Shown here: in pieces, positions 8,610 to 26,538 of the stretch
Position numbering within the stretch: position 1 is the first letter of the stretch
Layout of the letters: every line of letters begins with the position of its first letter
Virus record (IMG/VR): IMGVR_UViG_3300040856_002506
Span: 1-27,165 of that record
DNA from: a virus
Length of the DNA: 27,165 nt
Reading direction: 5' to 3' (one strand)
Program-made: the position numbers and the translations under genes
The notes under the pieces: generated by a model
Database searches by the model: none
What the model saw: only the letters and a program-made list of their open reading frames with translations
Told to the model about the DNA's origin: nothing

Positions 8610-9209
8610 TTAAGTCCATAATCCATTTGAATTACCAAACGTTGGATGATTTGTACTTCCAAAAGTTTGAGTTGTTCCACTTGCATCTATATAACTGCTT
8701 CCCATAAATCCATAAGCAGAAGGTATTCGTAATACTACAAAAGTTGTAGCGTTGCTTGTTCTATTTTGATGAAAAAGTTGAAAGTCTGTACTACTTAAAT
8801 GTCCTGCCCCCGCAGTTTGTTGAGTAATCCACCCTCCTTCATATGTTTCTTTTGGAGTAAGGGAAGTATTTGTAAGTTCCCAAGCAAAACCTTGATTATT
8901 AAGATTATATAAATCTAAATCATATACTTGATTTCCGTCTACTCTATCTAAGTGATATACTTTGGTTCCTTGTTCAAAAATAAAATACATTGGAATATAG
9001 GTAAGAGTAGGTTTTGAACCACTTGTCCAAGTAATTGTACTCGAAGTAGAAGAACTCGAACCTCCTGCATAAATTTGTCCTGTTCTTGGTTTTGTAGAAT
9101 CAAAAACCAAATTTTTTGCTGCAGTTGTAAGTACATCTTCTCCTTCTTTAGATATTTTTAGTCCATAGTTACTACTTCCTAAATTTCCTAATAAAACTCT
9201 GTTAGCCAC
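8610..9209 (-). CDS. MANRVLLG-family structural protein, copy 1 (199 residues)
   Basis: It starts at a GTG at 9209 behind a good AAGGAGA seven bases upstream, inside the last 22 bases of the glycosyltransferase gene. The first 40 residues (MANRVLLGNLGSSNYGLKIS...GEDVLTTAAKNLVFD) are the family tag. The remainder has aromatic and Gly-rich strands (YIPMYFIFEQGTKVYHLDRV, AYGFMGSSYIDASGTTQTFG) that suggest a beta-rich exposed domain. The tag occurs, as I recall, in many marine phage genomes, always in the tail region. It is co-transcribed with the enzyme operon. No enzymatic residues are visible. Confidence 0.86.
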   Translation of the reverse strand: MANRVLLGNLGSSNYGLKISKEGEDVLTTAAKNLVFDSTKPRTGQIYAGGSSSSTSSTITWTSGSKPTLTYIPMYFIFEQGTKVYHLDRVDGNQVYDLDLYNLNNQGFAWELTNTSLTPKETYEGGWITQQTAGAGHLSSTDFQLFHQNRTSNATTFVVLRIPSAYGFMGSSYIDASGTTQTFGSTNHPTFGNSNGLWT

Positions 9210-10168
9210 TTAATTCTCCTTGTTGTACTCTCTTGGTCATAACATAAATATTGTTCACAGTACCAAGATAAAAACTTTCTACTTTTTTCTTTACTCCACC
9301 AGGATAAATCCTCTATTGAATTTTTTAATTGTGGTAGATGTCTCAAATCTTTTGTTATCCAATGATATTCAGGATAACCATAACTTATAATAGGAACATC
9401 ATACATCATACATTCTATTCCTGCAGTGCTATTTTCAATTATAGCTAATTTAGTTTTTGGTAGTATAGTATGTATACTTTCAAATCCTTCTATTACAGTA
9501 ACACCCATACTTTTCCATAAGTCTATTCTTTTCTTATATTTTTGCCACTCTCCTACTTTTTCAGTTTCTCTTTGTAATGTAGGGTGAATCTTCACAACTA
9601 CTGGATAGTGCTTGTATAACTTATATACTATTGCAATAAGTTTATCCCAATGACTACCAAAAGAGTAATTTAATACAGTAGTATCTCCAGGCATTTGTCC
9701 TACTACGAGAATATGGTCTTCAGGAACTTGTACATCAGTTGATAACATTTTTAATTCTTCTCTATCACTCCATTTGCTTTCTAAATTTTTTATAAAAGTG
9801 GGGATTTTATCATTAAAGAAACTACTCTCATATGTTTCAAAATTAGGTTTTTCGTACGTTACTGAAGAATAACAAGCATAACCCAATTTATCTATAGAAA
9901 AATATTCTGGCGTTGGTGCAGTAGGTTTTAGAAATAAAGATTGTTCTCCTTTAAAAAATTGTAAATCATTTAATTCATCTACGTTTGTGTGATTATATAC
10001 ATAAATTGCATCTGTTTCATCTACGATTGGAGGATAATCAAAATTTAAGTATTTACTTACTTGAATTTCTGCTCCTAAAGACTCAAAAGCATTTAATACT
10101 CTGTCGTACATTGTTTGCCAGTTACCTTGAATATCTCTAAATCTGTGCGCACTTATTTTAACTTTCAT
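9188..10168 (-). CDS. Putative glycosyltransferase, capsule-synthesis (KpsS/LipB-like) fold
   Basis: The 326-residue product has two Rossmann-like halves. The first starts KVKISAHRFRDIQGNWQTMY. The second carries DHILVVGQMPGDTTVLNYS, VVVKIHPTLQRET (about residue 190) and FESIHTILPKTKLAIIENST with AGIECMMYDVPIISYGYPEY (about 229-265). The KIHP, then SIH..LP...(L/A)...NST.G.E......P.I..G pattern is that of capsule polysaccharide transferases of the Capsule_synth/KpsS group, where these residues bind the nucleotide sugar. I preferred the ATG at 10168 (GGGTGG upstream) over a GTG four codons earlier. It overlaps the oxygenase gene by 11 bases. The acceptor is unknown; the neighbouring collagen-like tail tip is the obvious candidate, but that is inference. 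Confidence 0.72.
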   Translation of the reverse strand: MKVKISAHRFRDIQGNWQTMYDRVLNAFESLGAEIQVSKYLNFDYPPIVDETDAIYVYNHTNVDELNDLQFFKGEQSLFLKPTAPTPEYFSIDKLGYACYSSVTYEKPNFETYESSFFNDKIPTFIKNLESKWSDREELKMLSTDVQVPEDHILVVGQMPGDTTVLNYSFGSHWDKLIAIVYKLYKHYPVVVKIHPTLQRETEKVGEWQKYKKRIDLWKSMGVTVIEGFESIHTILPKTKLAIIENSTAGIECMMYDVPIISYGYPEYHWITKDLRHLPQLKNSIEDLSWWSKEKSRKFLSWYCEQYLCYDQESTTRRIKWLTEFY

Positions 10169-10766
10169 TAAACCACCCACTAATTGCTATTCTTTGGTGT
10201 GGTGCACTAGAAGTAACTTCGCTTACAAAGTGGGGAAGTCCTCCATTTGGTAACTCCATAATAGTAAGAGAGTTAAACTCAGGCTGTATAAATTTGCCAT
10301 CTACATGCAACATTCCTCCATATTCAGCTTTCCAATTTTTTGTCAAGTTAAATATAAAAGCAATGCCTCTTTGTGTATCAGTATGTGTACTTAAAAAATC
10401 TCCTCTATCATATACACTAACAAAAGTTTCATACCTTACAGGATTTTTTAAGTAAGTATTCTTCTTTAAAAAAGATACAAACCCATTATCTAAATAAGTA
10501 TTAAACGAACATTCATAACAAGTGCAAGTACTCACATGAGTAGTACTTCTTTTAAATCTATAAGTAACGTACCCTTTCTGTAAGCTTTCTACTATCTTTT
10601 TATCGTAGTCCAAATTTCTAGAATTTAAATCATTTCCTACATATTTTATATCTTCATCAAAAAATTTATAAGTATACTTCCACCAATGTTCGGGAGTTTT
10701 GTAAATTTCTTCATGTAGGTGTTCTGCTAAATCTATAGGAAGAAAGTCCTTGTAAGTTTCTATCAT
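10158..10766 (-). CDS. 2-oxoglutarate/Fe(II)-dependent oxygenase, prolyl-4-hydroxylase-like
   Basis: This 202-residue enzyme has the double-stranded beta-helix signature: iron ligands H128 and D130 (STHTDTQRGIAFIFNLT), distal ligand H179 (NGGLPHFVSEV) and the 2-oxoglutarate-binding R192 (HQRIAISGWF). The YGGML at 149-153 precedes the distal histidine, as in prolyl 4-hydroxylase-type proteins. The family couples 2-oxoglutarate decarboxylation to hydroxylation of a protein or small-molecule substrate. An upstream CTCYEC cluster (C81, C83, C86) could bind a metal or form disulfides and is unusual. It lies two bases after the methyltransferase and overlaps the glycosyltransferase. A collagen-like gpJ sits just upstream, so a virion proline or threonine is a natural but unproven target. 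Confidence 0.82.
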   Translation of the reverse strand: MIETYKDFLPIDLAEHLHEEIYKTPEHWWKYTYKFFDEDIKYVGNDLNSRNLDYDKKIVESLQKGYVTYRFKRSTTHVSTCTCYECSFNTYLDNGFVSFLKKNTYLKNPVRYETFVSVYDRGDFLSTHTDTQRGIAFIFNLTKNWKAEYGGMLHVDGKFIQPEFNSLTIMELPNGGLPHFVSEVTSSAPHQRIAISGWFNES

Positions 10767-11402: not shown

Positions 11403-14400
11403 TTAGTCCGCTATTATTATTCTACTATTAACTCCATCAAAAATTATTTTACTATTATTTGAACCAACTCCTCCACCTGCTACTACAGAAGTAATTTCAG
11501 TAAAATCTGAATCTGCTGTTCCAGAACCATCATACTCAAAACTTCTTAAACTTGGTAAATGAAAGAACACGTCACCTGCTATTGGATTATTTCCTGTTCC
11601 TCTTAAATTACTAATAGCAGTGTACATAGCACTTCCTGTAGGAACTGCTCCTGCAGCTAGTCCAGAAGTAGTAGAATCAAAGACAACAGCTTTACCTGCA
11701 GCACCTGCTGGTCCTGTAGGGCCTATAGTACCAGTTCCACCTGTCGGTCCTGCTGCACCTGTTGGACCTAACGGTCCTGTTGGTCCTGCTCCACCTACTG
11801 GTCCCGTTGGACCAGCTCCACCTACTGGTCCCGTTGGACCAGCTCCACCTGTAGGTCCTTGTGGCCCTTGTGTACCTTGTATACCTTGAGGTCCTGTAAT
11901 ACCAGTGGCACCTGTAGGTCCTTGTGGCCCTTGTGTACCTTGTATACCTTGAGGTCCTGTAATACCAGTGGCACCTGTAGGTCCTTGTGGCCCTTGTGTT
12001 CCTTGTATACCTTGAGGTCCTGTAATACCTGCGGGTCCTGTTGGTCCTGCCCCACCTGTAGGTCCTTGAGGTCCTACTCCACCTGTTGGACCTGCTGCTC
12101 CTGTTGGACCTGCTCCACCTGTTGGTCCTGCTCCACCTGTTGGTCCTGCTGCACCTGTAGGTCCTACTCCACCTGTAGGTCCTGGAGTTGTTCCTGCGGG
12201 TCCTGTTGGTCCTGGTGTACCAGTTGGTCCTGCTCCACCTGTTGGTCCTGGAGTTGTTCCTGCGGGTCCTGTTGGTCCTGGTGTACCAGTTGGTCCTGCT
12301 CCACCTGTTGGTCCTTGAGGTCCTACTCCACCTGTTGGACCTAACGGTCCTGTTGGTCCTGCTCCACCTACTGGTCCTGTTGGACCTGCTCCACCTGTAG
12401 GACCTTGTGGTCCTCGTGTTCCTTGTATACCTTGTACACCTGTTGGTCCTGCTGCACCTGTTGGTCCTGCTCCACCTTGTGTTCCTTGTATACCTTGTAC
12501 ACCTGTCGGCCCTGCTGCACCTGTAGGTCCTTGTGGCCCTTGTGTTCCTTGTATACCTTGAGGTCCTGTTGGACCTGCTCCACCTTGTGGTCCTGTTGGA
12601 CCTGCTCCACCTGTTGGACCATCGGGTCCTGTTGGTCCTATTCCACCTTGTGGCCCTGTTGGACCTGCTCCACCTGTTGGACCATCGGGTCCTGTTGGGC
12701 CTGGAGCACCTTCCAATCCTTTAGTTACTGCATATAACTCTTCCATACTATAAACTGTGCTACTGTTTGTTGCTACTTTACATAATATGCTGTCTTGTAA
12801 AATAGAAGGTTTAAAACTTTGAAATTCAATAGTCGCGCCTGAATAAGTAGTCTTTACAACTTCATCTACATACATTAATGTATCGCTTTCAATAAATTGT
12901 ATTCTTCCATAATAAGTAACAGGACTAAATGTTAAAGTTACTCCATTTCCTATAGTTTGGGGAGAGCTTAAAGTTATTGAAGTACCACTTATTGCTGTAA
13001 CAAATACACTTGTACTTATTCCTGTTCCAGTTACTTTATGTCCTATTTTTATATTAGAATTTGAAGACCCTATAGTTAAAGCTGTAGAATCACTTATACT
13101 GCCACTTGAAGTAGAAGTTGTAGAACTACCATTAATTATTCTTACTAAATCGCCATTATTAAAATCTGATTCAAAAGAAGTAGAAGTTCCTATTATTGCG
13201 TTATCATTTGCAGACACTGCTATTGTTCCACTTGCAGCTGTTAATCCATTATTAGAAGCACCGACTTCTTTAAAATAAGTAACCGTAGGAGTAATTGAAG
13301 TATCGCTATAAATTTGAACTGCTTTAAATCTATCTGTAGAGTCACTTTCGTCAAATAATAAATAAGCTTCTGCAGATGCTCCCATTCCTGAAAAATCTTG
13401 CTGGTAAGTAGAAGCTGTAGCGCTTGAATTTAAAAATGTTTCTCCACTCGGAGAATCAAATTGATAAGTACTTGAACCAATTTCTAACAATCCTGTAGAA
13501 TCATCAATAGTTACAGTTTGATTAATTGAACCACCTTTAGGAACTAAATCAACTTTAGAAGTAAAGGAATTTCCAAGACTGCTTTCTGCAATTTCAATCT
13601 GTCTAACTGTATATTGAGATACTGTTCCTGAGCTTGAAACAGTTCTGACTTTTATTTTATATATACCTGCTTTTATATTTTTAAATGTTAAAGTTTGAGT
13701 TGTTATATTTGTTTTTATAGTTCTTGCTTCTCCCCTAATATTGTGGGATACTTCAAAACCCGAAGCAAATTTATATCGAGTACCGTTTGAGTTTTCAGGA
13801 AATTTCCAGTTTACAACTAATTGATGTCCTTGTGAATCTGCCGCAGTATTTGTAGAAATAGACCCATCAGATATACTCATAGGTTCTACACTCAAACTAA
13901 TACTATCAGGTGCGGGTACTACATCTTCTGGATTTGGAGAATTATCAACAGGTCTAATATTAAGTTCAAAACCTCTTTCAATCTGTGCAAATTTATTAGC
14001 AGCAAATTCTGCAGCTACTATAGAATATTTATAGTTATCTTCTTCTTTAATAGATATTACTTTGTATTCTTTTACTGTGCCTGTTTTTTCTGTTCCATCG
14101 GAATTAAATAATCTTAATGACCATATAGTTTCTTCCTCTGGAGCTTCACTAAATGCTGAAGATACAGTTAAAGAAGAAACATTTCCTGCAGATGTTGTTA
14201 CAGTTTTAGTCTCTATTCTTACATTTTCTGACCAAAAAACTTGTACGCTATTATTTGAATCATCACTTAAGTTAGCTGCATCAGACTCAGAAGTAATATT
14301 TGGTATTAAATCACCTCTATTATATACTACGCTTGATATAGTTGCAGTCTCTTGTTCTAAATATGCGCCACCTTTAGGGTAAACTAATAATAATTGAGGT

Positions 14401-16820
14401 GGAAAATCACTTGAATAAGAGGGTAAATTAATTGTTCTATCTAAAGGTATTACTGTTGTAGTTTTTGTACCTGTTGCTGAAACTCTTCCTGAATAAGATG
14501 ATCTGTCTCTGTCTGCGTCTTGTACTGTAATAATATCTCCAGGCCCTAAACCTACAGCAGCAATACTTGTTACAAAAGATACTGTTTCTTTTTCTAATCT
14601 TTGACTTAGAAGCTTCCACTTACCTGCTCTATGTGCTTGACCTCTTGATGTACAGCCAAATGCTAAATGTTCGCTTCTTACAATTCTTCCTGTTTCTAGT
14701 ATTCCTTGCTGGTCTTCTACATATTCAGTACTTTGTCTATAATTATCATTTGGGTCATTCCATTGAACTTTTACTTGATTAGTTCTAACTCTATTTCCTG
14801 TTCCTTCATATTGAAAAATTCCTCCTTCTATATTTCCTTTTGTAAAAGCATATACAGGTTCTTTTTCTCTATCAGAAATTGCAGTTACTTGACCATCTTT
14901 CCAAATAGCCATTCCTCTAAAAACACTTGCGAATTGTTTTAATACATTCGTAGCTTCTGCTGCTTTTGATAAGTACACATTAGTTGTAAAACGAGGTTCA
15001 TATCCACCTTCTCCATCAGGAACTAATTCATCACAGTACTTTGCTAATTGAAATAATCCATATTTATCTATATTTGATTTATCTATGAACTGTCCTAATC
15101 CATATCTTTCGTTTGTTAATAAATCATAAAAAACCCATACTGGATTATTGCAATATACTTTTTCATAGTTTACTGATGTTGCATTAAAAGTAGTTATATC
15201 TCCTCTAAAATTACCGTCCCAATTTTGATAAGTACTTTCAGTTGCTCCTGTAGTTATATTTCTTGTATAAGCTGCTGCTCCGCCTGTCTCATCTCTTGTA
15301 AGATAGTTTGTAGGTACTTGTATTTTTAATCCTTTTAATAAGTAAGCTCTTTGAGGTAATTGACCTTCAAAATCAGCAGCATTAAAAGATGTTGAGATAT
15401 AAGAAGTGTACGGATATTTTAACTTATCTTTTATTATAGATTCTATTGTAGCTAAAGTACAAGGGTTTGTATGTCTATAACTGCCATCTATAAAATTCGT
15501 ATCATTAATTCTTCTTACTCTTATTCTCCAGTCATCATAAGGTTGGAATTTATCTGTGATTATCATAAATTCTTCACTAAACTCATTGTATTGAGGTTCG
15601 TTTGGTTTTATATATCCAGTATTTGGAAAACTGCTGGTCGTAATAAAGTTGACATTTCTGTCTCGTCTTCCAGTGCTTCTATTAATAATTTGACTATTGG
15701 TAGGTCCATACAATAGTTCTGAGATATAACTCGAACCATTATCTACACTATACTCAAAGAATATTTGAAGTTCAACAAAAGAAGATTCTTTAGAGCCACT
15801 TGATTTTATTGCGTGACAAGCAGGCAATTTAAAAGTTAAATGAATTTCATCTATTTCGGAAGGATTAGATACTCCTGCAAGAGCTGAAGTTATAATTGTA
15901 TCTTCTGCTGTACCTTCGGATTTTGTCGGCTCATCTAATTCATTATTGTATCCAGAAACTAAATTTCCTCCAGTTCCTACTCTTGCTCTTAAATCTGACT
16001 GTTCTAAACTTATGTTTAATGCAGTGTTTGTTGCTGCAGAACCAAAACCTGTTTCATGTGGTATATAATCTTGATTTCTCTCACCTGACTTAAATTGCAT
16101 TTTGACTTTCTCAAAATTCATTATATCATCATTCTGACCAACGATTGTATTAAGAGCAGATATTTGACAAGATACATTAGAAGTCGTTACAGGAACAGCC
16201 TTAGAAAGTGTTGCTACATTTCCTGATATTGAACTAATACTTGCATTAAAATCTAAAGAAATATTTTTAGAAGATACAGTTACGGCTGCAACATCTTGTA
16301 CTGTAATTTCTGTCGCGCTTACAAAAGTCTTTACTTTAGTTATTAAATCTGTTCCATCTTGTCCTGCTCCTGCTATTCTTATAAAAGCCTCGGGAGTAAC
16401 TGATCTTAAATTTACCATATCAGAAGTAAAGAAAGAACTACTTGTTGTCACTGTATCAGAACCTGCTGTCATACTTGCAATGCCAGTTCCTTGTTTTTCT
16501 GCTCCAACAATAGTTACAGTTCTTGCTCCAAGAGATAGTCCTGATTTATTATTTAAAGTAAGTGAATTTATTTCTCCGAATTGAGAATGAGTAATATTTG
16601 CAGAACCAGCTGTAGTACTTAGTATAACTCTTCGAGGTTTCATTATTTCATTTGCTATATTATCTATAAAAGGTACATCATTTATAAATATAGAAGCAAA
16701 GCCATTTGCTAACCCTTCTATTGGGCCTTCAGAAAGGATATCATATACAACAGCATGTTGTTCCTTATCAGGATGCCTTCTACTACTATTAACTGTTGCT
16801 GGTTTAGTATATTTTGCCAT
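11403..16820 (-). CDS. J: Tail tip attachment protein, lambda gpJ-like, with a collagen-like domain
   Basis: This 1805-residue protein forms the tail tip and host-contact fiber. Residues 1-45 ([19 protein letters not shown]) are a classic gpJ start. The core to about 800 includes [46 protein letters not shown] and [20 protein letters not shown], all typical of gpJ. Residues about 970-1077 look like a fibronectin type III domain. From 1371 to 1708 there are 112 Gly-X-Y triplets with two single-Pro interruptions (GTTP). The last 97 residues form a small C-terminal domain ([20 protein letters not shown]). Lambda gpJ is about 1130 residues, so the collagen and stem are additions. It follows the gpI homologue, and the ATG has AGGAATATAA upstream. 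Confidence 0.93.
11848..12036 (-). repeat. 63-bp tandem repeat, three copies
   Basis: Copies lie at 11848-11910, 11911-11973 and 11974-12036. Each encodes seven triplets ([21 protein letters not shown] or close). The first two are identical as read, and the third differs near one end. High DNA identity over several units suggests recent slippage or unequal exchange. Confidence 0.85.
12172..12303 (-). repeat. 66-bp tandem repeat, two copies
   Basis: Copies at 12172-12237 and 12238-12303 are almost identical and each encode a block containing [16 protein letters not shown]. Each carries one extra proline that breaks the triplet register. The duplication explains why the interruption occurs twice. 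Confidence 0.82.
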
Positions 16821-16828
16821 TTATATTC

Positions 16829-17632
16829 CTATTTTTGTTGCACATAGTCTGCTGAACTCTTTGTACCTGTATGCGGTCCTGTTTGTATCGTATAAGATGA
16901 AGTTCCATCTGATTTATAGTTTGTACTTGTTCCTGTGGTTACAAAATTCGAACTTGCATATGAATTTATTGTACCTGGAGCAAAACCCTCATTGATTGGA
17001 GTTCCTCCTATTTTCATTTGTCCATATAATACTGGAACAGGTTGTCCTTGTTCTATATTTTGTCCTGCCCCATTAAAAAGGAAAGAAGGGTCATCCACTT
17101 CAGGCTCAGCTGCAGACATTTCGCTTAATCCCATAAGTGCTAAATTTACTCCTAAAGCAGCGACTAACATTCCGGGCACTGTTAAACTAACTGCAGCGCC
17201 ATAACTCATAGCTGTAGCAGCTGAAACAGTTCCTGCTGACATAGCTCCTCCTATAGTAGTTGCGCCTGCAGCTCCGGCTCCTCCAGCTGATGTGAAGAAA
17301 ACTCCCATACCCGGAAGAAAGAAGAGCGCAGCTAATAATAAAAGTCCTGCGATTAATTTTCCTAAACCTTTGCCTGAACCTGCTGGAACTGGGGTTATAA
17401 TTACAGTATCTTTTAAATTAGGCAACCATAAATCTTCTTCATCTTCAAAAAGTTCGTCTCCATTTTGAATACTAAATTGTATATTTTTATTATGGCAGTC
17501 GATTAAATATTCTTTAAATCCTTCAACTTGGCAATCAATAAGTTTTAATACATCACGCATAGAAGAATCTACAGAAGTCCATTCTGCTCCAAATTTTTCT
17601 CCTAATTCTCCCATCAATTTAACGTGGGTCAT
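16829..17632 (-). CDS. I: Tail assembly protein, lambda gpI-like
   Basis: From the ATG at 17632 (GAGGAG nine bases upstream) the product has 267 residues. A longer start at 17665 lies deep in the gpK gene. The N-terminal 80 residues (HVKLMGELGEKFGAEW...DVLKLIDCQ, ending VIITPVPAGSGK) form a ubiquitin-like fold typical of gpI. A hydrophobic, Gly/Ala-rich region follows (about 91-167, LIAGLLLLAALFFLPGMGVF). Then comes the conserved QNIEQGQPVPVLYGQMKIGG (191-210). In lambda, gpI acts with gpJ, gpK and gpL in tail-tip assembly and is not found in the mature virion. It overlaps gpK by 14 bases. The 60-residue Ser/Thr-rich tail is less conserved. Confidence 0.85.
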   Translation of the reverse strand: MTHVKLMGELGEKFGAEWTSVDSSMRDVLKLIDCQVEGFKEYLIDCHNKNIQFSIQNGDELFEDEEDLWLPNLKDTVIITPVPAGSGKGLGKLIAGLLLLAALFFLPGMGVFFTSAGGAGAAGATTIGGAMSAGTVSAATAMSYGAAVSLTVPGMLVAALGVNLALMGLSEMSAAEPEVDDPSFLFNGAGQNIEQGQPVPVLYGQMKIGGTPINEGFAPGTINSYASSNFVTTGTSTNYKSDGTSSYTIQTGPHTGTKSSADYVQQK

Positions 17633-17954
17633 AAATATATTCTCCTCTTTCCGGTAATGATACAATTAAATATGGTATCCCTAAAATTTTTGACGCATTT
17701 TTATCATGCTCGCTTGGATGACAATTTTGCCCATAGTGACTATGGACTACATATAATATTTTTGAAATAATCGAGTGACGAACGTATTCCTTTGGGTCAA
17801 TGTAAAAAGAATTTTCATCTTCACTTTTATTTTCTACAGAAATAAATTTAATTTCGTTACTTTTTTGAACTATGAGTCCGCAACCTTCACGCGGTGCCTC
17901 TTTCTCCATGTGACTATATATTTCTGGTAATAATTTATTTAAACTTTCTTGCAC
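17619..17954 (-). CDS. K: Tail assembly JAMM metallopeptidase, lambda gpK-like N-terminal domain
   Basis: The JAB/MPN zinc site is complete: E23 (REGCGL), HSH (71-73) and S81/D84 in HSHYGQNCHPSEHD, matching E...H-x-H-x7-S-x2-D. Lambda gpK combines this domain with an NlpC/P60 endopeptidase; here the 111-residue protein ends after the JAMM domain, so the cell-wall hydrolase part is missing. I chose GTG at 17954 because GGAGG is placed eight bases before it. A TTG five codons earlier gives a longer frame but overlaps that ribosome site. The gene overlaps gpL by 20 bases. It probably processes a tail-tip component during assembly; the substrate is unknown. Confidence 0.85.
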   Translation of the reverse strand: MQESLNKLLPEIYSHMEKEAPREGCGLIVQKSNEIKFISVENKSEDENSFYIDPKEYVRHSIISKILYVVHSHYGQNCHPSEHDKNASKILGIPYLIVSLPERGEYIYDPR

Positions 17955-19137
17955 CTGGGAATCCTCCAAAAGGTAATTGTGCTACTGTACCTGGTTTTGC
18001 TGAACCTGAAGTAAATCCAAATCTTTTTATACAAGATTTTAATCTTTTTCCGCAAACATCTCCTCTTTCCCAGTAACTATTAAATCCAGGAGCAACATTT
18101 GAACCAGATGTTTGTGTTCTTGTTGCTTTCCATAATCTTACTTTACTATCAGACCCCGTATGAGTTACATAATTATTGAATCTATCATCTGTATAAGTAT
18201 AGTAGTTTGCACTTGAACTGTAAGTATCAAATACTCTTATTCTTGCCCAGGTTGCACTATTATCTGCAGGAGTATTACTTGTACTTGATGTTGCCTGCCA
18301 GTAATTTAATATCGTTGAACTATCTGCAGAAGTATCTATAGTGCCATCTTCATTATATCTTCTAACTCCAGATGCTGTTCCTAAAGTCAGCGAAGTTTTA
18401 TAATAACTATCAGCAGTAGCAGAAGAACTAAATGTTGTAAAACTTGTGCTGGAAACTATAACATACTCATCATCTGCATTTACATAAACGGTGTAAGTTG
18501 TTCCTGCAATTCTATAATTACTTTCTTCGTGCCAAGTACATGCTCCTCTTTTATTTGCTTCTGTTTTACTTGGACAAGCACCTTGATAAATCCAAGGACA
18601 AGCATTATGACCTACAACTCTATAAGGAAGTACTAATCCTTCTACATCAAAAGGAGTTGTTAATTCAAATGAAAGTTCTAATGCATTTCTTTGTTCTATT
18701 CTATCTATAATCCATACTTGGCGAGGAAATTCTATTGGAGTTACTCCAGAGCCTGTATCTGCACTTCCATCTTTTAAATATTTTCGTAAAGTTCTTCTTC
18801 TATATAATTTAAAACCAACTAAGTCATCAGGAGTTAAATTTCCTAAAGCAGCTCCAAAAGTGTCTAATACGTTTGCAAAAGTTATTACTGGTCTTGGTGC
18901 AACACCTGTTGATTTTGTTTCTATTCCCTCTATTTGAATTGGTAAAGCATCATAAGTATTTAGCTGAGTATTTGTGTCATAGTCATACATTTGTACGTTA
19001 CCTAAATCACTATCTTCTCCTCTTGTAAAATAAACTTTAGAAGTTCCTTCTGCATTTAGTGCAATTTCATACAAGTCTACAATCCCTGAAGACTGTTCTA
19101 ATCCTTGAACTTCTTTTATTGCTATTTTTTCACTCAT
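17935..19137 (-). CDS. L: Minor tail protein, lambda gpL-like, with an insertion
   Basis: The 400-residue product begins with a gpL-type domain (DLYEIAL...YFTRGED, then KLYRRRTLRKYLKDG, IIDRIEQRNALELSFELTTP). Cysteines at 180 and 188 (NACPWIYQGACPS), 200 (GACTW), 362 and 369 (VCGKRLKSC) correspond to the cluster that in lambda gpL binds iron-sulfur. Between residues 200 and 362 about 160 Ser/Thr/Tyr-rich residues are inserted, making the protein much longer than lambda gpL (about 232 residues). It is fused to gpM by a TAATG overlap and is presumably part of the tail tip. The inserted region is beta-rich and resembles no domain I know. Confidence 0.85.
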   Translation of the reverse strand: MSEKIAIKEVQGLEQSSGIVDLYEIALNAEGTSKVYFTRGEDSDLGNVQMYDYDTNTQLNTYDALPIQIEGIETKSTGVAPRPVITFANVLDTFGAALGNLTPDDLVGFKLYRRRTLRKYLKDGSADTGSGVTPIEFPRQVWIIDRIEQRNALELSFELTTPFDVEGLVLPYRVVGHNACPWIYQGACPSKTEANKRGACTWHEESNYRIAGTTYTVYVNADDEYVIVSSTSFTTFSSSATADSYYKTSLTLGTASGVRRYNEDGTIDTSADSSTILNYWQATSSTSNTPADNSATWARIRVFDTYSSSANYYTYTDDRFNNYVTHTGSDSKVRLWKATRTQTSGSNVAPGFNSYWERGDVCGKRLKSCIKRFGFTSGSAKPGTVAQLPFGGFPGARKFK

Positions 19138-19524: not shown

Positions 19525-22518
19525 TTAACTTAATACTCCTCCAGGTCTTTTTTCTCTTTGTATTGTTTCCATTACTGCCATTTGAATTGCCATTCCAAGT
19601 GCTTTTCCTTGTTCTGCATTTCCACCAGTACTGTTTGTATTTCCACCTGCATCTACATTAATTACTATATTGTTATTTCCGCCACTTCCTTTCATATTCA
19701 CTGGAATACTTCTTCCATCTGGCAAAGGCACAACAGCTTCATTGTGTTTTCCTTCTCCTACAAGATAAGTAGGTTCTGTTGCGATTCCACCACTTCTATA
19801 GCCTGTAATTCCTCCTTTTGCCATTGGAATAATTCCTCCATCGGCCATTGGAATAGGTAATCCCATTGCTCCAAGTATTTTTAAAGCTAACATTTTTGCA
19901 AGTATTTGAGCCATCATTTGAAGAACAGATTGTGTCATTGATTTAAAAGCATCTTTAAGAGTCATCGTTCCATCAATTAATCCTTGTATTGCAGTTTGCA
20001 TTGAAGTTGCAAAAGTATCTACTAATTGGTCTTTTGCTCTCATTGTAATATTTTCGAGTCTTTCTGCAGTTGTTAGTTGTACTTTTAAGTTTGCTAACTT
20101 TGCATCTTCTTCTGCTATTTCTACTTTATTTTTTTCAGCGCCTTTATTTTTAAGCTCCTCTCTTCTTTGCATTGTCTGGGTAATTTCTAACTCTATTAGT
20201 TTTACTTTATTGCGAAAATTCATTTCTTCTCTAATTATTTTTGGCATACCTAATGACTTTTCTTGAAATTGAGTTTGTAAATTTATTTTATCTGTAAGAA
20301 ATCCTATTTCTACTTTAGCGAGTCTTTCTGCTTCATTTATTGCTAATTGCCCTAAATCTTTTAACACCTCTGCAGGGTCTCTTGTATATCCGCCTCCAGC
20401 AAAAGCAGCTTTTCTTTTATAAGTAGAAAGTATCTTATCTACAGCTTCGTCACCTACAAACTGTCGAAGGGAGCTAAGTGTTGCTTCGTCTGTCACCATA
20501 CCATGCATTCCTCCCGTTACTCCAAATCTTTTAAAGATATCTTCAGGAGAAGCATCTCCAAGGTCACTTAAAGTTTTTCCAAAAGTTCCTATAGCTGCTC
20601 CCATTCTAAAAAATGCGGACCCTTGAGTTCTCATACTTGACATTGCTGTTCCAAAGTCTTCCACTGCTCCTTTTAATAAGTTAGTAGTAGTAGAAAATTT
20701 CGTTATTGCATCTGCAGCCAGTGTTCCGTTTTCTTGTAAATCTAATAAATCAGTTGCTATTGCTTTAAAAGTTTCATTACTTACATAATCTTTATTTATC
20801 TTTCTTAAATTTGTAGTTAAATTTTGTATTTTTTCATCTAATTGCTTATATGCGTCAGTTCCTTCTAATACTCTATTACGTTGTTGCTCTAAACTTGTTA
20901 TAACTTGTTTTACTACATCTACTTGCTCTGAGGATAATCTTTGTGTTCCTGAAGGAGTTAAGAAATTATTAGCTCCTCCTTCCTCTCCAAAAGCATCTGC
21001 AATGCCTTTAAAACTAAAATTAGAGAAAAAGTTTGCCTCTTGAACAATAGCTCCCATATAAGTAGCTGTTTCTTTCATTTTTTTTGCTAAATCTGTTACA
21101 ATTTCATTTTGCTCTTTTAGTTGCTTATTTACATTTTTTAAATTTTCTTCAAACTTTCTAGTAGCTGGGTCTTTAAATTTATCAAACAAACCTGACAAAA
21201 CTGAAATTAAAGATATAACTAATCCTGCCCATCCAAGTGCAGAAATAAATCTGGAAAGCACCATACCTCCGAATTTTACAAATCCAAGGAAATTTCCATA
21301 TTCTGCTCTCATTATATATAGTTCTGCTTTCCATCTTGCTCCCATTCTTTTAAAAGAATTTCCTGAACTCATTTCTAATTGAGCATTATGAGCTTTTAAA
21401 ACATTTAGAAGATTTTGACTTTCGCTTTTTACAAATGTAGAATAATTTAAATAACTTGATTTTTTACGAGTCATTGCAGTTTCAAAAGCTTTTACCTCTT
21501 GTTTTGTACCTAAGTTTCCAAACTTTGATAGTCCTTTTTCTGACATCATTCCTTTTAATACTTTTGATGCAGATTTACTTGCTTTTTTAGTATCAATAGT
21601 TGGTGCTTCAGGAGTAATTGCTCTTAAAATACCTGAGCCTAATAATGCAAAAGAGCCTGCAAGAGCTACTATATTTTTTGTGAGACCTTTTGCTATAAAC
21701 TCTGCTAAACCTGTTAGTCCCATTTTTATTGAGTTTATTAAGTCATCAAATGATTTTGCTAAAAGTTGGAATTGGTTTAATTCAGTAGAAAATTCACCAA
21801 ACTTTTCTTCCCCTTGTCTAAGAACTTCATTTACAACTGCTTGAGATTTTTCAAAAATAGTTAAAGAATCTTTTGTCTTATTAATTTCATCTGCATATTT
21901 TTTTGTTGCAGTTTCTAATCTAAGAATAATACCTAATTCATCTAATAATTCTGGCTCTGCTTTTGTAGCACCTCTTACTAATCTATTTAAAGAGTCTGTT
22001 AAGTCTCTTCCAAGAGCAATAGAAGCATTTTTTGCAACTCCTCCAAGTCTTGATATTTGGTCTGAAGTTAATCCTGCAGCTCTTGCTATCGCTACTGATT
22101 GGGCGGCTTCTGCAAAAGCTAATTGTTGTCCTGTGGCTGCTTGTAGTCTTGAGGTTAATAGTTTAAGAGATTCTCCTGTTATGTAAGCATACTCTTTCTG
22201 ACCTTCAATTAATATTCTATAATTAGCAGCGTCTTGTAAAAATCTAAAAGCTGCTCCAATCGCAAATATATTAGCAGCTAAAGTTGCATATGCAGGTACA
22301 AGTCCGCCTGTAATGCCCTGAGCCATTTTTGAAAAGTTTTTTGTGGTATTTGAAGACTGTTGAGATGCTCCTTTAAAGTTACGGTTTAAAGTTTGTTCTG
22401 ATTTACTTAAATCATCAGTAGCTTTCTTGGCTTTTTTCGTCTTCTGTGCAAATAGTTCAATAGTATTACCATCATCTAATTGAAGTAATATTTTTCCGCC
22501 TTTTATAGTTTTTGCCAT
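19525..22518 (-). CDS. H: Tape measure protein
   Basis: This 997-residue protein is Lys/Ala/Gln-rich and mostly helical. Hydrophobic segments at about 71-97 (GGLVPAYATLAANIFAIGAAF), 281-300 and 416-445 (ISALGWAGLVISLISVLSGLF) may insert into the host membrane at DNA ejection. Long coiled-coil stretches occur near 455-490 and 740-830. The C-terminus has GGIIPMAKGGITGYRSGGIA followed by PTYLVGEGKHNEAVVPLPDG, a hallmark of tape measure proteins. At about 1.5 angstroms per residue, the tail would be roughly 150 nm. It starts one base after the gpT-like frame with little ribosome signal (AAGAAAG), so coupling to the frameshifted chaperone is likely. Confidence 0.95.
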   Translation of the reverse strand: MAKTIKGGKILLQLDDGNTIELFAQKTKKAKKATDDLSKSEQTLNRNFKGASQQSSNTTKNFSKMAQGITGGLVPAYATLAANIFAIGAAFRFLQDAANYRILIEGQKEYAYITGESLKLLTSRLQAATGQQLAFAEAAQSVAIARAAGLTSDQISRLGGVAKNASIALGRDLTDSLNRLVRGATKAEPELLDELGIILRLETATKKYADEINKTKDSLTIFEKSQAVVNEVLRQGEEKFGEFSTELNQFQLLAKSFDDLINSIKMGLTGLAEFIAKGLTKNIVALAGSFALLGSGILRAITPEAPTIDTKKASKSASKVLKGMMSEKGLSKFGNLGTKQEVKAFETAMTRKKSSYLNYSTFVKSESQNLLNVLKAHNAQLEMSSGNSFKRMGARWKAELYIMRAEYGNFLGFVKFGGMVLSRFISALGWAGLVISLISVLSGLFDKFKDPATRKFEENLKNVNKQLKEQNEIVTDLAKKMKETATYMGAIVQEANFFSNFSFKGIADAFGEEGGANNFLTPSGTQRLSSEQVDVVKQVITSLEQQRNRVLEGTDAYKQLDEKIQNLTTNLRKINKDYVSNETFKAIATDLLDLQENGTLAADAITKFSTTTNLLKGAVEDFGTAMSSMRTQGSAFFRMGAAIGTFGKTLSDLGDASPEDIFKRFGVTGGMHGMVTDEATLSSLRQFVGDEAVDKILSTYKRKAAFAGGGYTRDPAEVLKDLGQLAINEAERLAKVEIGFLTDKINLQTQFQEKSLGMPKIIREEMNFRNKVKLIELEITQTMQRREELKNKGAEKNKVEIAEEDAKLANLKVQLTTAERLENITMRAKDQLVDTFATSMQTAIQGLIDGTMTLKDAFKSMTQSVLQMMAQILAKMLALKILGAMGLPIPMADGGIIPMAKGGITGYRSGGIATEPTYLVGEGKHNEAVVPLPDGRSIPVNMKGSGGNNNIVINVDAGGNTNSTGGNAEQGKALGMAIQMAVMETIQREKRPGGVLS

Positions 22519-22971
22519 TTACTTTCTTAAATTAGCAGAATTTATTCCGCCCTTAGCTTTTGTTTCTTGACTCTTTCTTTGTCTTTCCAGCTTTTTATTT
22601 ATTTTGTCTGTGTTTCGTGCTTCAATATGCTTTATAAAATATATAGTAGATTTTTTGTCTTTTACATCCCATACATCTAAAAGAGTTCCGAGAGATGAAA
22701 AATCTTTTCCCATATAAGAACCACTCATTCCATCCCATCTATCAGGTAGTAAATCGTGCAATAAAAAAGCCACCTGAACTTCATAGGGATAATCCTCTGT
22801 AGTCGGTGGCATTTCGTCTGGGTCAGGTTCAATACCTTTTTGATCACATAATTCTAAATATGTGTCTAAAGGTAATTGACCTTCCTTATAATGTTTATCT
22901 AATAAACCAAGTATTTGTGTTACTTGGTCTTGGTAAAATTTTCCAGGTCGCCTGTAATTTCTGTAACCCAA
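22519..22971 (-). CDS. T: gpT-like tail assembly chaperone frame, expressed by -1 frameshift
   Basis: This open frame (150 codons from a TTG) overlaps the gpG-like gene by 52 bases in the -1 frame and has no ribosome site of its own. It is best read as the C-terminal half of a GT fusion: ribosomes slip at 22941-22935, and the frame continues from TAC at 22935 (FYQDQVTQILGLLDKHYKEG) for 138 residues. Added to the 138 residues of gpG before the slip, the fusion has 276. The T part is basic at its end (KKLERQRKSQETKAKGG), consistent with binding the tape measure. In lambda, gpGT coats the tape measure during tail assembly and leaves before maturation. Confidence 0.85.
   Translation of the reverse strand: MGYRNYRRPGKFYQDQVTQILGLLDKHYKEGQLPLDTYLELCDQKGIEPDPDEMPPTTEDYPYEVQVAFLLHDLLPDRWDGMSGSYMGKDFSSLGTLLDVWDVKDKKSTIYFIKHIEARNTDKINKKLERQRKSQETKAKGGINSANLRK
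22906..22929 (-). promoter_or_regulatory. Stem-loop downstream of the frameshift site
   Basis: On the minus strand ACCAAGTA (22928-22921), a seven-base loop and TACTTGGT (22913-22906) form a perfect 8-bp stem. G at 22929 can add a G-U pair at the base. It begins five or six bases after the slippery heptamer, the usual distance for a -1 frameshift stimulator, and it contains the gpG stop codon. Confidence 0.7.
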
Positions 22972-23348
22972 GTATCAAAGTCAGCTCCATTTTTCATCAA
23001 TGTTTCTGCATTTTCTACTGAGAAATCTAATTCATCTTCAGGCTCAAGTCCACTTATATCTACTAATAGAAGCTCTTCTAAGTACTTATATTTGAGTCCT
23101 TTCCATCCTTTGATGACGGCTTTACAGTATTCTGTTAAAAATTTATCTTCATCAAGAGTTTCTTCAAAAGCTCTTGTCTTTCTGTTTAGTTTCTGAGAGA
23201 CACATCTACTTCTTAATTTAATGAGTTCTTCTCTTGCTAAGTAACATAAGTCAACAGAAAATCCATTTAAAGTAGGATAATCAACTGTTACTGTTTTACT
23301 TGGAGTTAATAAACTCGCTAATGATACGTTTTGTTTTTGTTCTGTCAT
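22920..23348 (-). CDS. G: Tail assembly chaperone, lambda gpG-like
   Basis: The 142-residue product (DYPTLNGFSVDLCYLAREEL, then FLTEYCKAVIKGWKGLKYKY, acidic end) is a typical short chaperone upstream of a tape measure gene. The KGWKGLK motif and an acidic C-terminus (LEPEDELDFSVEN) are common to the family. A canonical slippery heptamer near its end shifts a minority of ribosomes into the gpT-like frame. The start lies 13 bases after the terminator T-tract, behind AGGAAAAAAC. In this family free G binds the major tail protein or the tape measure complex; the ratio to GT is functionally important. Confidence 0.88.
   Translation of the reverse strand: MTEQKQNVSLASLLTPSKTVTVDYPTLNGFSVDLCYLAREELIKLRSRCVSQKLNRKTRAFEETLDEDKFLTEYCKAVIKGWKGLKYKYLEELLLVDISGLEPEDELDFSVENAETLMKNGADFDTWVTEITGDLENFTKTK
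22935..22941 (-). promoter_or_regulatory. -1 programmed frameshift slippery site A_AAT_TTT
   Basis: In the gpG frame the codons read GAA AAT TTT ACC, so the heptamer is A AAT TTT, an exact X XXY YYZ site. Slipping back one base re-pairs both tRNAs on AAA and TTT and enters the gpT-like frame (GGA AAA TTT TAC). A stem-loop follows five to six bases later. Confidence 0.88.
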
Positions 23349-23401: not shown

Positions 23402-24523
23402 TTAAGTTACCGCTGGTCCTACAAACTCCATTGTAATTTCGTCTGTTCCATCTACTGATGTTGGTAAAGCGTGGAAAGTAGTTTCCAAACTTACTATATC
23501 ATCAATTGAATGTGTAGGTACTTCTAAGTGACAAGTTGGTAAAGTCATAGTAACTCTTGGAGTATTACCAGTTCCACCTACTACAAATACTAAATTGAAG
23601 TCATTTGTAATTACTGAAGTTGATTCAATAATATCTTCAAATAAGTCTGCACTTGAATTTGCACCACCAGTTGGAGTATTTAAGTAACAAGTAAAGTTAC
23701 CTGAAACATTTCTTGTTCCTGTTACATGACCTAAAGGTTGATTGACAATTCCTAAAGTTTCAGGAGTTAAAAAAGTAATATTGTTTCCAATAGTAATGTT
23801 TCCGCCTGTTAATGTTAAATCATATGAAGTTTGAATATCTCCATCTGCTGTTGCAGTAACAGTTAAGTCTGTTAATCTATTCCTAATAAAGTTATTTGTG
23901 TCAGCTGCTGCTGTTCCTTCGTAAATTGTTGCTGTTGGCATTGAAGATGTTTCAGTAATAATCTGACCAAAACCAGACCAGTTTGCTGTTGCAATTCCAT
24001 CAATGTCAAAATCAATTGAAACTTCATTTACTACACAGTCTGCAATTTGATAAATAGTAGGAGTTGATTTTCCACTACCCATTTCAAATGTAAGTGTAAA
24101 AGTATCTAAAGTTACTTTATTAGAATTTGTAAATACTAAATCTGCTCCGTTTGCATCAGCTGAACTAAAGCCTGCTCCTGATTGACCAACTGCTGCTGAA
24201 CCTGCTAAAGCATTCCATAGAGCTTCTTCTACTACATGAGAAAAAGCTGAACCATGCTCTCCTCCAGAACCATCTCCGCCAGAGGTAAAAGGTCTAATAT
24301 ATGTTGAAAAAGACCACTCTGCTGGTGCGTAAGAATCTGTGAACATTTGTCTTGCTCTTCTACTCACACCTGCCGCTGTAGCCATTTCATTAAGAGTTAC
24401 CTCAGTTGTGTTTGTCGCCTGAGAAAAACTAAATCCATCTAAAACAGGTATATTATATACTGCACTCTGTGAGTCTGTTAGATGAACCTTAGTATCTCGA
24501 CTAAAATAAAATGTATCTGCCAT
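23402..24523 (-). CDS. Major tail tube protein
   Basis: This 373-residue protein (MADTFYFSRDTKVHLTDSQS, ...NIPVLDGFSFSQATNTTEVT, EWSFSTYIRPFTSGG, LNTPTGGANSSADLFEDI, TLPTCHLEVPTHSIDDIVSL) has the pattern of siphovirus tube subunits. It lies in the V position, between the tail terminator and the gpG/gpT pair. Lambda gpV has 246 residues, so this is a longer form, probably with an extra surface domain near its middle. AGGAG precedes the ATG, and a terminator follows, both expected for an abundant protein. The gene starts after a 63-bp gap that holds no consensus promoter. Confidence 0.85.
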   Translation of the reverse strand: MADTFYFSRDTKVHLTDSQSAVYNIPVLDGFSFSQATNTTEVTLNEMATAAGVSRRARQMFTDSYAPAEWSFSTYIRPFTSGGDGSGGEHGSAFSHVVEEALWNALAGSAAVGQSGAGFSSADANGADLVFTNSNKVTLDTFTLTFEMGSGKSTPTIYQIADCVVNEVSIDFDIDGIATANWSGFGQIITETSSMPTATIYEGTAAADTNNFIRNRLTDLTVTATADGDIQTSYDLTLTGGNITIGNNITFLTPETLGIVNQPLGHVTGTRNVSGNFTCYLNTPTGGANSSADLFEDIIESTSVITNDFNLVFVVGGTGNTPRVTMTLPTCHLEVPTHSIDDIVSLETTFHALPTSVDGTDEITMEFVGPAVT

Positions 24524-24586: not shown

Positions 24587-25036
24587 CTAATATTGGACGG
24601 TAGTAATTATTTCGCCTATTCCAAAAGGGTCTAAAACACCTTCGTCCGTATCAATACTGAGTATCGTTGTTTGAATAGTACTTTGTACTTTTCCTAAATT
24701 ATCAGTATACGTTATTGGGTTATTGGTTTCTAACACAGTTTCTACATCTTCCATTAATCTTTCCAATGCTTCTACTGGGTCATCTTCATTTACGTAGCAA
24801 CGAAAAGTTAAAGTTAAAAATCTAAACTTTTCTCCCGCACCTAAATATTCTCTTGTTTCACTTCCTGCATTTATATGTATTGCTGGAAACTCTTCGATTT
24901 CATCCCAAAATTTTAATCTTGGTTCTACATTTGAAACAGAACTTAAAAAATTACCTGTTCCATTTATAGTTAATAATTTCTTAACAAAGGCATTAACAAT
25001 AGCACTTCTTCGTGTAGTATAACCTCTTTCTGACAT
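24587..25036 (-). CDS. Tail terminator / tail completion protein, gpU-like position
   Basis: The 149-residue product contains RSAIVNAFVKKLLTI, LKFWDEIEEFPAIHINAGSE with TREYLGAGEKFRFLTLTFRC, DPVEALERLMEDVETVLETN and a C-terminal beta hairpin (EGVLDPFGIGEIITTVQY). This alternation of an N-terminal helix, a central EFPAI...G strand pair, and a helix with E..L..D...L is typical of tail terminators that cap the tube at the head side. The ATG overlaps the previous stop as TAATG, and the ribosome site AGGAG is inside the previous gene's last codons. Identity rests on length, position just before the major tail gene and this general pattern. Confidence 0.75.
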   Translation of the reverse strand: MSERGYTTRRSAIVNAFVKKLLTINGTGNFLSSVSNVEPRLKFWDEIEEFPAIHINAGSETREYLGAGEKFRFLTLTFRCYVNEDDPVEALERLMEDVETVLETNNPITYTDNLGKVQSTIQTTILSIDTDEGVLDPFGIGEIITTVQY

Positions 25037-26538
25037 TATATTCTCCTAACTTTTATAAACTTTTTGCCCATTAATTCGCCTGCTATTTCCCGTATTGTTC
25101 CACCTATTAATCTTCTAGGGTCTCTACCTGTACTTCCTTGTGCAAATCCAGGTTCAAAAGTTTGATAAGGATACTTCATATATGTATAGTCTATATTTAC
25201 TCCGCCCTTTGGTCCTACTAAAACATTTGTGACTTCTGCGCTTGTTCTAAATCTTCCTGTTCTGTTTCTTAATGCTGGAGGATTCATTCTTTTTAACATT
25301 TCCTCTGGTAAAGCAGCGTTTAATAATTCTTTTAGAGCTACTGCACTATTTGCTTGTCTTGCTCTAGTTTCTGTAACTTTAGAAGCTGCAAGAGCTTTTC
25401 CGGATTTTCTTGTTTTAGTTTTTAGTTTTTTACCTGGAACTCTACTTCTACTTACTTTTTTATCTGTTTTTATTTTCTTTTTTAATTCTTTACTTAACTT
25501 TATATTTTTACCTTTACTCAGCTCTTTCCCCATTTTTGCTATTGCTAATTCAGGAATTGCTTTTGAAGGTTTATCACTTGAAGTCCATAAGTTTTCTATT
25601 TTCTTTATGTCCGAAATTTCCGCATATTTAGTTGCTAATCTTACAAATTCGGGAGTTGGCTTATCTCCTTTTCCAAAAATATTCTTAAAAGCTTCTGAAA
25701 TTGCTGTATTTAAAGCTCCTGGATTTGATGCATTTTGGTCCTCTAAAGTTATTTCTGCTATAAATTCTAAAACATCATTAAAACCTTTTGTACCTCTGTC
25801 CTTTTTTAGAACGTGTTCGCCACCTATATACTCTGTTAAAAATCCATTAAAAATATCAGTTATTGATATAATACTGCTATCTTCAAAGTTTTTATTTACA
25901 CTTTTTATAGCATTATCAACTGCTTGTTTCATAGATTTTTTCAAAGCTATATCTGTATAACTTCCTTTTTGACCTTGAAAGTTAGTTGCTGGTGCATATC
26001 CTTCTACTGTTTTACCTTTAGAATAGTCTATTTCTCTTTCAGTTCCGTGTTCATATTCAGTTCGTGCTTCTATTGTATCTATATAGCCATCAAAAGCATT
26101 AGCATAAGCGGCTTTTACTTCTTCTGACATTTCAGTTTTAAAAGTAGTTTCAATATCTTTTTTAACAGAGCTCGTCATTCTTGGATTATTTTTCCATTTA
26201 ATTACCCACTCTTTTTTATTTTGTCTTATTGTTTGAGGTAATGTTAGCCAACCTTTTTTTCTTGATGTAGTATTATTAGTTTTTGCCCACTTATTCATAT
26301 GATCACATATTTTATTCCATTCAGTGTCATCTTTAGAATTTAATGTTAATCCTCTTATAGTATCTCCTAAATCTTCTCCTTTAGGATTTTTAGGCACACT
26401 GACTGCAGCACTTATATTATTTCTTAACAGTCTAACTGTTCCTGAATATACTCCAACAGAAGCACTTTTCTTAGTGCCTCTTGATTTCATAAAATCTATA
26501 AAATTACTAACTGCTTGGTCTCTAATAGTGGAGGACAT
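25036..26538 (-). CDS. Large head-tail junction protein of unknown family
   Basis: This 500-residue protein occupies the slot where siphophages usually have a short head-tail adaptor or gp10-like protein. Residues about 1-130 are basic and helical (WNKICDHMNKWAKTNNTTSR). A Lys-rich segment at about 345-385 (SKGKNIKLSKELKKKIKTDK) may bind DNA or RNA. The last 85 residues (RNRTGRFRTSAEVTNVLVGP, VNIDYTYMKYPYQTFEPGFA, RDPRRLIGGTIREIAGELMG) look like a compact neck or HK97 gp10-like domain; I am not certain of the match. It is joined to both neighbours by TAATG overlaps. A fusion of a scaffold-like N-terminus to a neck protein is possible. Function is inferred. Confidence 0.85.
   Translation of the reverse strand: MSSTIRDQAVSNFIDFMKSRGTKKSASVGVYSGTVRLLRNNISAAVSVPKNPKGEDLGDTIRGLTLNSKDDTEWNKICDHMNKWAKTNNTTSRKKGWLTLPQTIRQNKKEWVIKWKNNPRMTSSVKKDIETTFKTEMSEEVKAAYANAFDGYIDTIEARTEYEHGTEREIDYSKGKTVEGYAPATNFQGQKGSYTDIALKKSMKQAVDNAIKSVNKNFEDSSIISITDIFNGFLTEYIGGEHVLKKDRGTKGFNDVLEFIAEITLEDQNASNPGALNTAISEAFKNIFGKGDKPTPEFVRLATKYAEISDIKKIENLWTSSDKPSKAIPELAIAKMGKELSKGKNIKLSKELKKKIKTDKKVSRSRVPGKKLKTKTRKSGKALAASKVTETRARQANSAVALKELLNAALPEEMLKRMNPPALRNRTGRFRTSAEVTNVLVGPKGGVNIDYTYMKYPYQTFEPGFAQGSTGRDPRRLIGGTIREIAGELMGKKFIKVRRI

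Follow-up and report, generated by a model that had tools for sequence, protein, structure and literature searches.

A candidate A_AAT_TTT frameshift signal with a two-register hairpin in the tail assembly chaperone genes of uncultured marine viruses

Frameshifting between the tail assembly chaperone genes G and T is itself well known, and in phage lambda the slippery heptamer is GGGAAAG. The overlapping lambda frames give, by a -1 slip near the end of G, a short chaperone and a long one, G and GT (PMC5009743). Tail chaperone frameshifts differ by phage and include -1, -2 and +1 shifts (PMC5009743; PMC3498833), and in the reported cases the G and T frames of the phages concerned have little similarity in sequence (PMC5009743). 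Among -1 sites, R_RRU_UUY heptamers, the class that includes A_AAU_UUU, are notably shift-prone in Escherichia coli and G_GGA_AAC is of low efficiency there (Sharma et al., PMC4066793), rates that may not carry over to the hosts of the viruses studied here. Here we describe a probable variant of the lambda-type G/GT frameshift in a 27-kb virus record of 27,165 nt, the whole of which is called the window hereafter, and compare it with its homologues in uncultured viruses and in T5-like phages.

All features discussed lie on the minus strand of the window. The overlapping G and T frames sit between the gene of the major tail tube protein (23402-24523; PHROG 3575, E 2e-54; Pfam Phage_tube_2) and that of the tape measure protein (19525-22518; PHROG 3779, E 2e-49), giving the order tube-G-T-tape measure. 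The zero frame encodes gpG, a tail assembly chaperone of 142 aa (22920-23348, stop codon TAA at 22922-22920), which matched PHROG 313 'Tail assembly chaperone' (E 8e-11). The predicted 138-aa C-terminal extension gpT, in the -1 frame after the slip (22519-22935), matched PHROG 3914 'tail assembly chaperone' (E 6e-17), and is homologous to the T of T5-like phages by profile-profile comparison (probability 99.3-99.7%). The chaperone identity proposed in the first-pass annotation is borne out by these families and by the position of the genes. An AlphaFold model of gpG (pLDDT 75) aligned best in the PDB with YqbN (3klu, Z 5.7) and the HK97 tail assembly chaperone (2ob9, Z 5.2), both below Z 8, the next alignment having Z 2.9; Foldseek with the gpG model alone gave no significant match. 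Neither a nucleotide search for a close cultured phage of the window nor a tblastn search of cultured phages with the window T returned a match, and the nearest cultured relatives of the window G and tube proteins are T5-like phages of enterobacteria and Vibrio, with 27-41% identity.

The 3' end of gpG reads GAA AAT TTT ACC AAG ACC AAG TAA. It holds the heptamer A_AAT_TTT (22941-22935) in the gpG reading frame, the sole in-frame X_XXY_YYZ sequence of the permitted overlap, in a set of 12 window genes where such in-frame heptamers are scarce (47 per 7091 codons). The T frame lies in -1 relative to gpG and extends without interruption from 22974 as far as its stop codon at 22519. Following a 6-nt spacer, ACCAAG (22929-22934), folding predicts a perfect 8-bp stem with 5' arm ACCAAGTA (22921-22928) and 3' arm TACTTGGT (22906-22913) around the 7-nt loop ACACAAA (22914-22920). 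Counting the weak outer A-U and G-U pairs, the arms extend to 22930 and 22904, the stem to 10 bp, and the spacer shrinks to 4 nt. The hairpin has a minimum free energy of -11.2 kcal/mol (RNAfold; z -2.6) and one in 200 shuffles was as stable. A search for heptamer, spacer and stem together, allowing up to three mismatches, found a single occurrence in the window and none in 100 shuffles, which demonstrates uniqueness only, because the pattern was taken from the site itself. No Rfam family matched the window. The first-pass annotation had described most of this correctly: the phase of the heptamer, the -1 relation of the frames, the perfect 8-bp stem shortly downstream and a 276-residue GT product, the length we also computed for the fusion. 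Its positions, 22906-22941, are right, with the minus strand left unstated; its stem spanning the gpG stop holds for the first two bases of TAA, which lie in the 5' arm, and not for the third, which opens the loop.

Searches of IMG/VR, with the window included, provided 161 locus entries with a complete site, all from the same marine clade of uncultured viruses. They correspond to 147 contigs, 14 entries repeating a contig, and to 85 distinct sites, a number that, like the non-redundant sets, is unaffected by the repeats. The clade is abundant, with at least 598 relatives counted in IMG/VR. The sequence AAATTTT is exact in 144 of the 147 contigs (158/161 locus entries, 82/85 distinct sites), in line with the conservation that had been proposed as a check. 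The three exceptions are AAATTTC in one contig, still of the type X_XXY_YYZ, GAATTTT (L023) and GCATTTT (L161). A close relative with both frames still open but no heptamer had been named as evidence against the signal; only L023 and L161 are of this kind, and both retain the stem and the U_UUU tetramer, itself shift-prone in E. coli (PMC4066793). The distance from heptamer to gpG stop is constant throughout the clade, and the overlap permitted by the -1 frame is 19, 25, 37, 49 or 52 nt, with no second in-frame heptamer within it in any marine locus entry. In the 22 loci with a 19-nt overlap the heptamer marks the very start of the open -1 frame, therefore a slip upstream of it is impossible there. 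At the slip site, synonymous variants of the E, N and F codons number 2/48, 0/47 and 1/48, as compared to 7-49% in the remaining conserved two-fold columns of G, the AAG codon of the stem excepted. Two clade contigs, L291 and L292, are binned in a gammaproteobacterial and a euryarchaeal MAG; both have A_AAT_TTT, they are short and their labels conflict, and their placement is probably a binning artefact.

The hairpin is conserved as well. All 85 distinct sites form a stem of 6-14 bp that starts 2-8 nt past the heptamer, with the 5' arm anchored on a nearly invariant CAAGTA core. The 3' arm occupies either of two registers, offset by nine bases: register 1, which includes the window, in 45 sites and register 2 in 40. 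Shuffles were made with synonymous codons in the T frame, leaving the T protein unchanged; the helix score of 50 non-redundant sites was 21.8 as compared to 12.0 in these shuffles, the highest shuffle mean being 13.4. Compensatory changes between the arms amounted to 17 and 19 two-sided cells, the shuffles giving 6 and none of 500 reaching those values, although the stem signal derives partly from related sequences and the cell counts overstate the number of independent events. For both registers the two-sided changes and the covariation score exceeded all 500 shuffles as well as every slid version, so the covariation that the first-pass annotation had wanted to see in relatives is present. 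Compensatory column pairs are 15-35 (CG/GC/UA) in register 1, and 22-37 (GC/AU) and 23-36 (AU/CG) in register 2. Locus L019 pairs GTCAAATAG with CTATTTGAT, a compensated change from G-C to A-U in the core. Four loci (L033, L034, L039 and L044) are able to form both stems. On the G tree the register switched at least six times as judged by well-supported branches and 11 times by parsimony, counts that G/T mosaicism or recombination could inflate; the hairpin therefore appears to have been kept while its own sequence was replaced.

Taken together, the locus has the zero-frame heptamer phase and the covarying structure 2-8 nt downstream that characterize hairpin-stimulated X_XXY_YYZ sites. It shares with lambda the overlap between tube and tape measure genes, the membership of G and T in tail assembly chaperone families (here PHROG 313 and 3914) and a conserved -1 site near the 3' end of G; it differs in having A_AAT_TTT and a conserved hairpin instead of the lambda heptamer, the likeness to lambda G itself having been checked via profile libraries only. 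On these sequence grounds the site is very probably a programmed -1 ribosomal frameshift signal through which one mRNA yields two tail assembly chaperones. For most ribosomes translation would end at the gpG stop, with release of the 142-aa product. In a minority, with tRNA-Asn on AAU in the P site, tRNA-Phe on UUU in the A site and the hairpin at the mRNA entrance, both tRNAs would slip in tandem and re-pair on AAA and UUU, after which reading would continue as ENF|YQDQVTQ... into the 276-aa GT. On the model of lambda, G may coat the tape measure protein and recruitment of tail tube subunits may fall to the T part, the slip rate setting the G:GT ratio.

Relatives outside the marine clade use other sites. 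A second uncultured aquatic group was represented by 91 tested locus entries, some of which repeat a contig. It has T in the -1 frame, homologous G and T, and DLxNF at the site as in the window (e.g. L198, L215, L252 and L277); it differs from it in that most members have G_GGA_AAC, one codon upstream of the marine heptamer position, and in that only 9 of 24 non-redundant G_GGA_AAC sites have a hairpin above shuffles. The idea that G_GGA_AAC sites never have a hairpin was ruled out by those nine sites, which came from a larger sample. A subgroup of the aquatic viruses has A_AAT_TTT (GCA AAT TTT) with an unrelated 9-bp stem, for which p is 0.05-0.07 with two non-redundant sites only.

T5-like Demerecviridae, with homologues T5.143 and T5.142, resemble the window in G (27-41% identity), in a homologous T, in gene order and in a Phe codon that is invariant over the whole G alignment. 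They differ in having T in the +1 frame, UUU_CGN at that Phe codon in all inspected sites, and no hairpin, their sites as a group scoring no higher than shuffles (10.7 vs 10.8). The window has T in -1 and reads UUU ACC at this place. A slip in the +1 clade would take place with the Phe codon in the P site, pairing shifting from UUU to UUC before the CGN codon. In Vibrio phage 70E38.1 the +1 frame, as aligned, becomes open a mere 11 nt ahead of the gpG stop, so the shift there is confined to the stretch AACTTTCGT. The +1 T and the invariant UUU_CGN are found across the T5-like and Vibrio Demerecviridae loci L082-L089, L172-L197 and L293-L300. In most public records of these phages T is annotated as a gene of its own or as a hypothetical protein; the Shivani record holds a joined CDS with a length implying +1. 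According to one genome paper, T5 and Sugarland have no predicted frameshift signal (PMC6256483). The core UUU_CGN is also that of the +1 site of influenza A PA-X, UCC_UUU_CGU (PMC3498833), an unrelated animal-virus gene and a motif parallel for the T5-like sites only.

The distribution of stems bears on whether the marine hairpin has a role in slippage. The heptamer could by itself give a low-level -1 shift, with the hairpin retained for mRNA stability or control of gpG termination and of no stimulatory effect. The stem does cover the gpG stop, and to our knowledge the lambda G/GT site is without an obvious strong stimulator. Likewise, in 15 of the 24 G_GGA_AAC relatives the hairpin does not stand above shuffles, and since so many of these sites lack a clear one a stem is not always needed. 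Against this, the stem is universal among marine A_AAT_TTT sites, at 2-8 nt in both registers, the second A_AAT_TTT lineage has its own unrelated 9-bp stem at equal distance, and the T5-like +1 sites have none above shuffles. Given this linkage of stem to slip type a stimulator role fits best, and we regard a non-stimulatory hairpin as rather unlikely. The place of the hairpin, its conservation and its link to A_AAT_TTT sites lead us to infer that it stimulates slippage.

T might alternatively be a separate protein, translated from its own ribosome binding site by translational coupling, with the overlap incidental. This would agree with the usual annotation of T as a separate CDS in public T5-like records, with a TTG at 22971 that precedes the overlap in the window, and with an ATG at codon 15, 18 or 24 of T in about 24 locus entries. 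In the marine clade, however, no start specific to T recurs consistently: T lacks GTG or TTG up to codon 20 in 138 of the 161 locus entries, and the first ATG lies most often (121 entries) at codon 37, beyond the gpG stop and inside the conserved EPDPDEMPP. In the 22 loci with the shortest overlap the frame opens at the heptamer itself, and a separate start of T leaves the conservation of heptamer and stem unexplained. An independent T start was judged very unlikely.

Being a stem-loop at a gene boundary, the hairpin could also be an intrinsic transcription terminator between G and T. It has no U-run, the terminator scan passes over it, and termination there would cut off the tape measure gene, which makes this reading highly improbable. 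The same scan does call a terminator-like hairpin between the tail tube gene and gpG (AGGGAGGGGTCATTCCCTCCCT + CTTTTATAGG, 23388-23367), which may raise expression of the tube over that of the chaperones. An error in sequencing, or a decayed gene broken by an indel, conceivable for a single frame break in metagenomic contigs, is refuted by the survey of 147 contigs, with the identical break at the same codon and both frames open and conserved.

With the programmed -1 shift as the preferred reading for the marine clade, the three groups can be compared over homologous genes, T being homologous between the marine, other aquatic and T5-like groups with a probability of 99.3-99.8%. The +1 group is set off by a strongly supported branch (100/99) in a tree that is unrooted and has long +1 branches, so a single change of direction suffices. 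We consider it likely that the position of the recoding signal is held while the signal itself is exchanged. The conserved Phe would be the A-site codon in the marine clade (-1, with hairpin) and the P-site codon in T5-like phages (+1), G_GGA_AAC ends one codon upstream in the aquatic group, and the marine 3' arm has repeatedly jumped nine bases, or three codons. Selection thus seems to fix the place of the junction and the rough amount of GT rather than the route by which the frame is changed. As G and T can be aligned over the slip types, the replacement of one recoding mechanism by another becomes testable within a single family.

Searches of the openly available literature turned up neither A_AAT_TTT in a tail chaperone nor a +1 shift described for T5 itself. 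As far as the searched literature shows, A_AAT_TTT with a two-register hairpin in an abundant uncultured marine clade is new, as is the finding that three slip types, covering both directions, line up near one codon of homologous genes. The +1 reading of the T5-like site is not wholly new, given the joined Shivani record. The two-register hairpin offers ready natural variants for reporter assays, and UUU_CGN is a concrete prediction for a model phage that is said to lack a signal (PMC6256483).

Several other genes on the minus strand of the window deserve mention. A 500-aa protein (25036-26538) has a T5 p143 tail-completion domain confined to its C-terminus. At the place of a lambda gpK-like tail protein there is a JAB-domain protein (17619-17969), which overlaps the next gene in another frame. 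The tail region also encodes a Capsule polysaccharide biosynthesis-like protein (9188-10180) and an 1805-aa Phage-tail_3 protein with collagen repeats (11403-16820). Two genes downstream of the latter lies a 2OG-Fe(II) oxygenase (10158-10766), which might possibly hydroxylate the collagen-like fibre.
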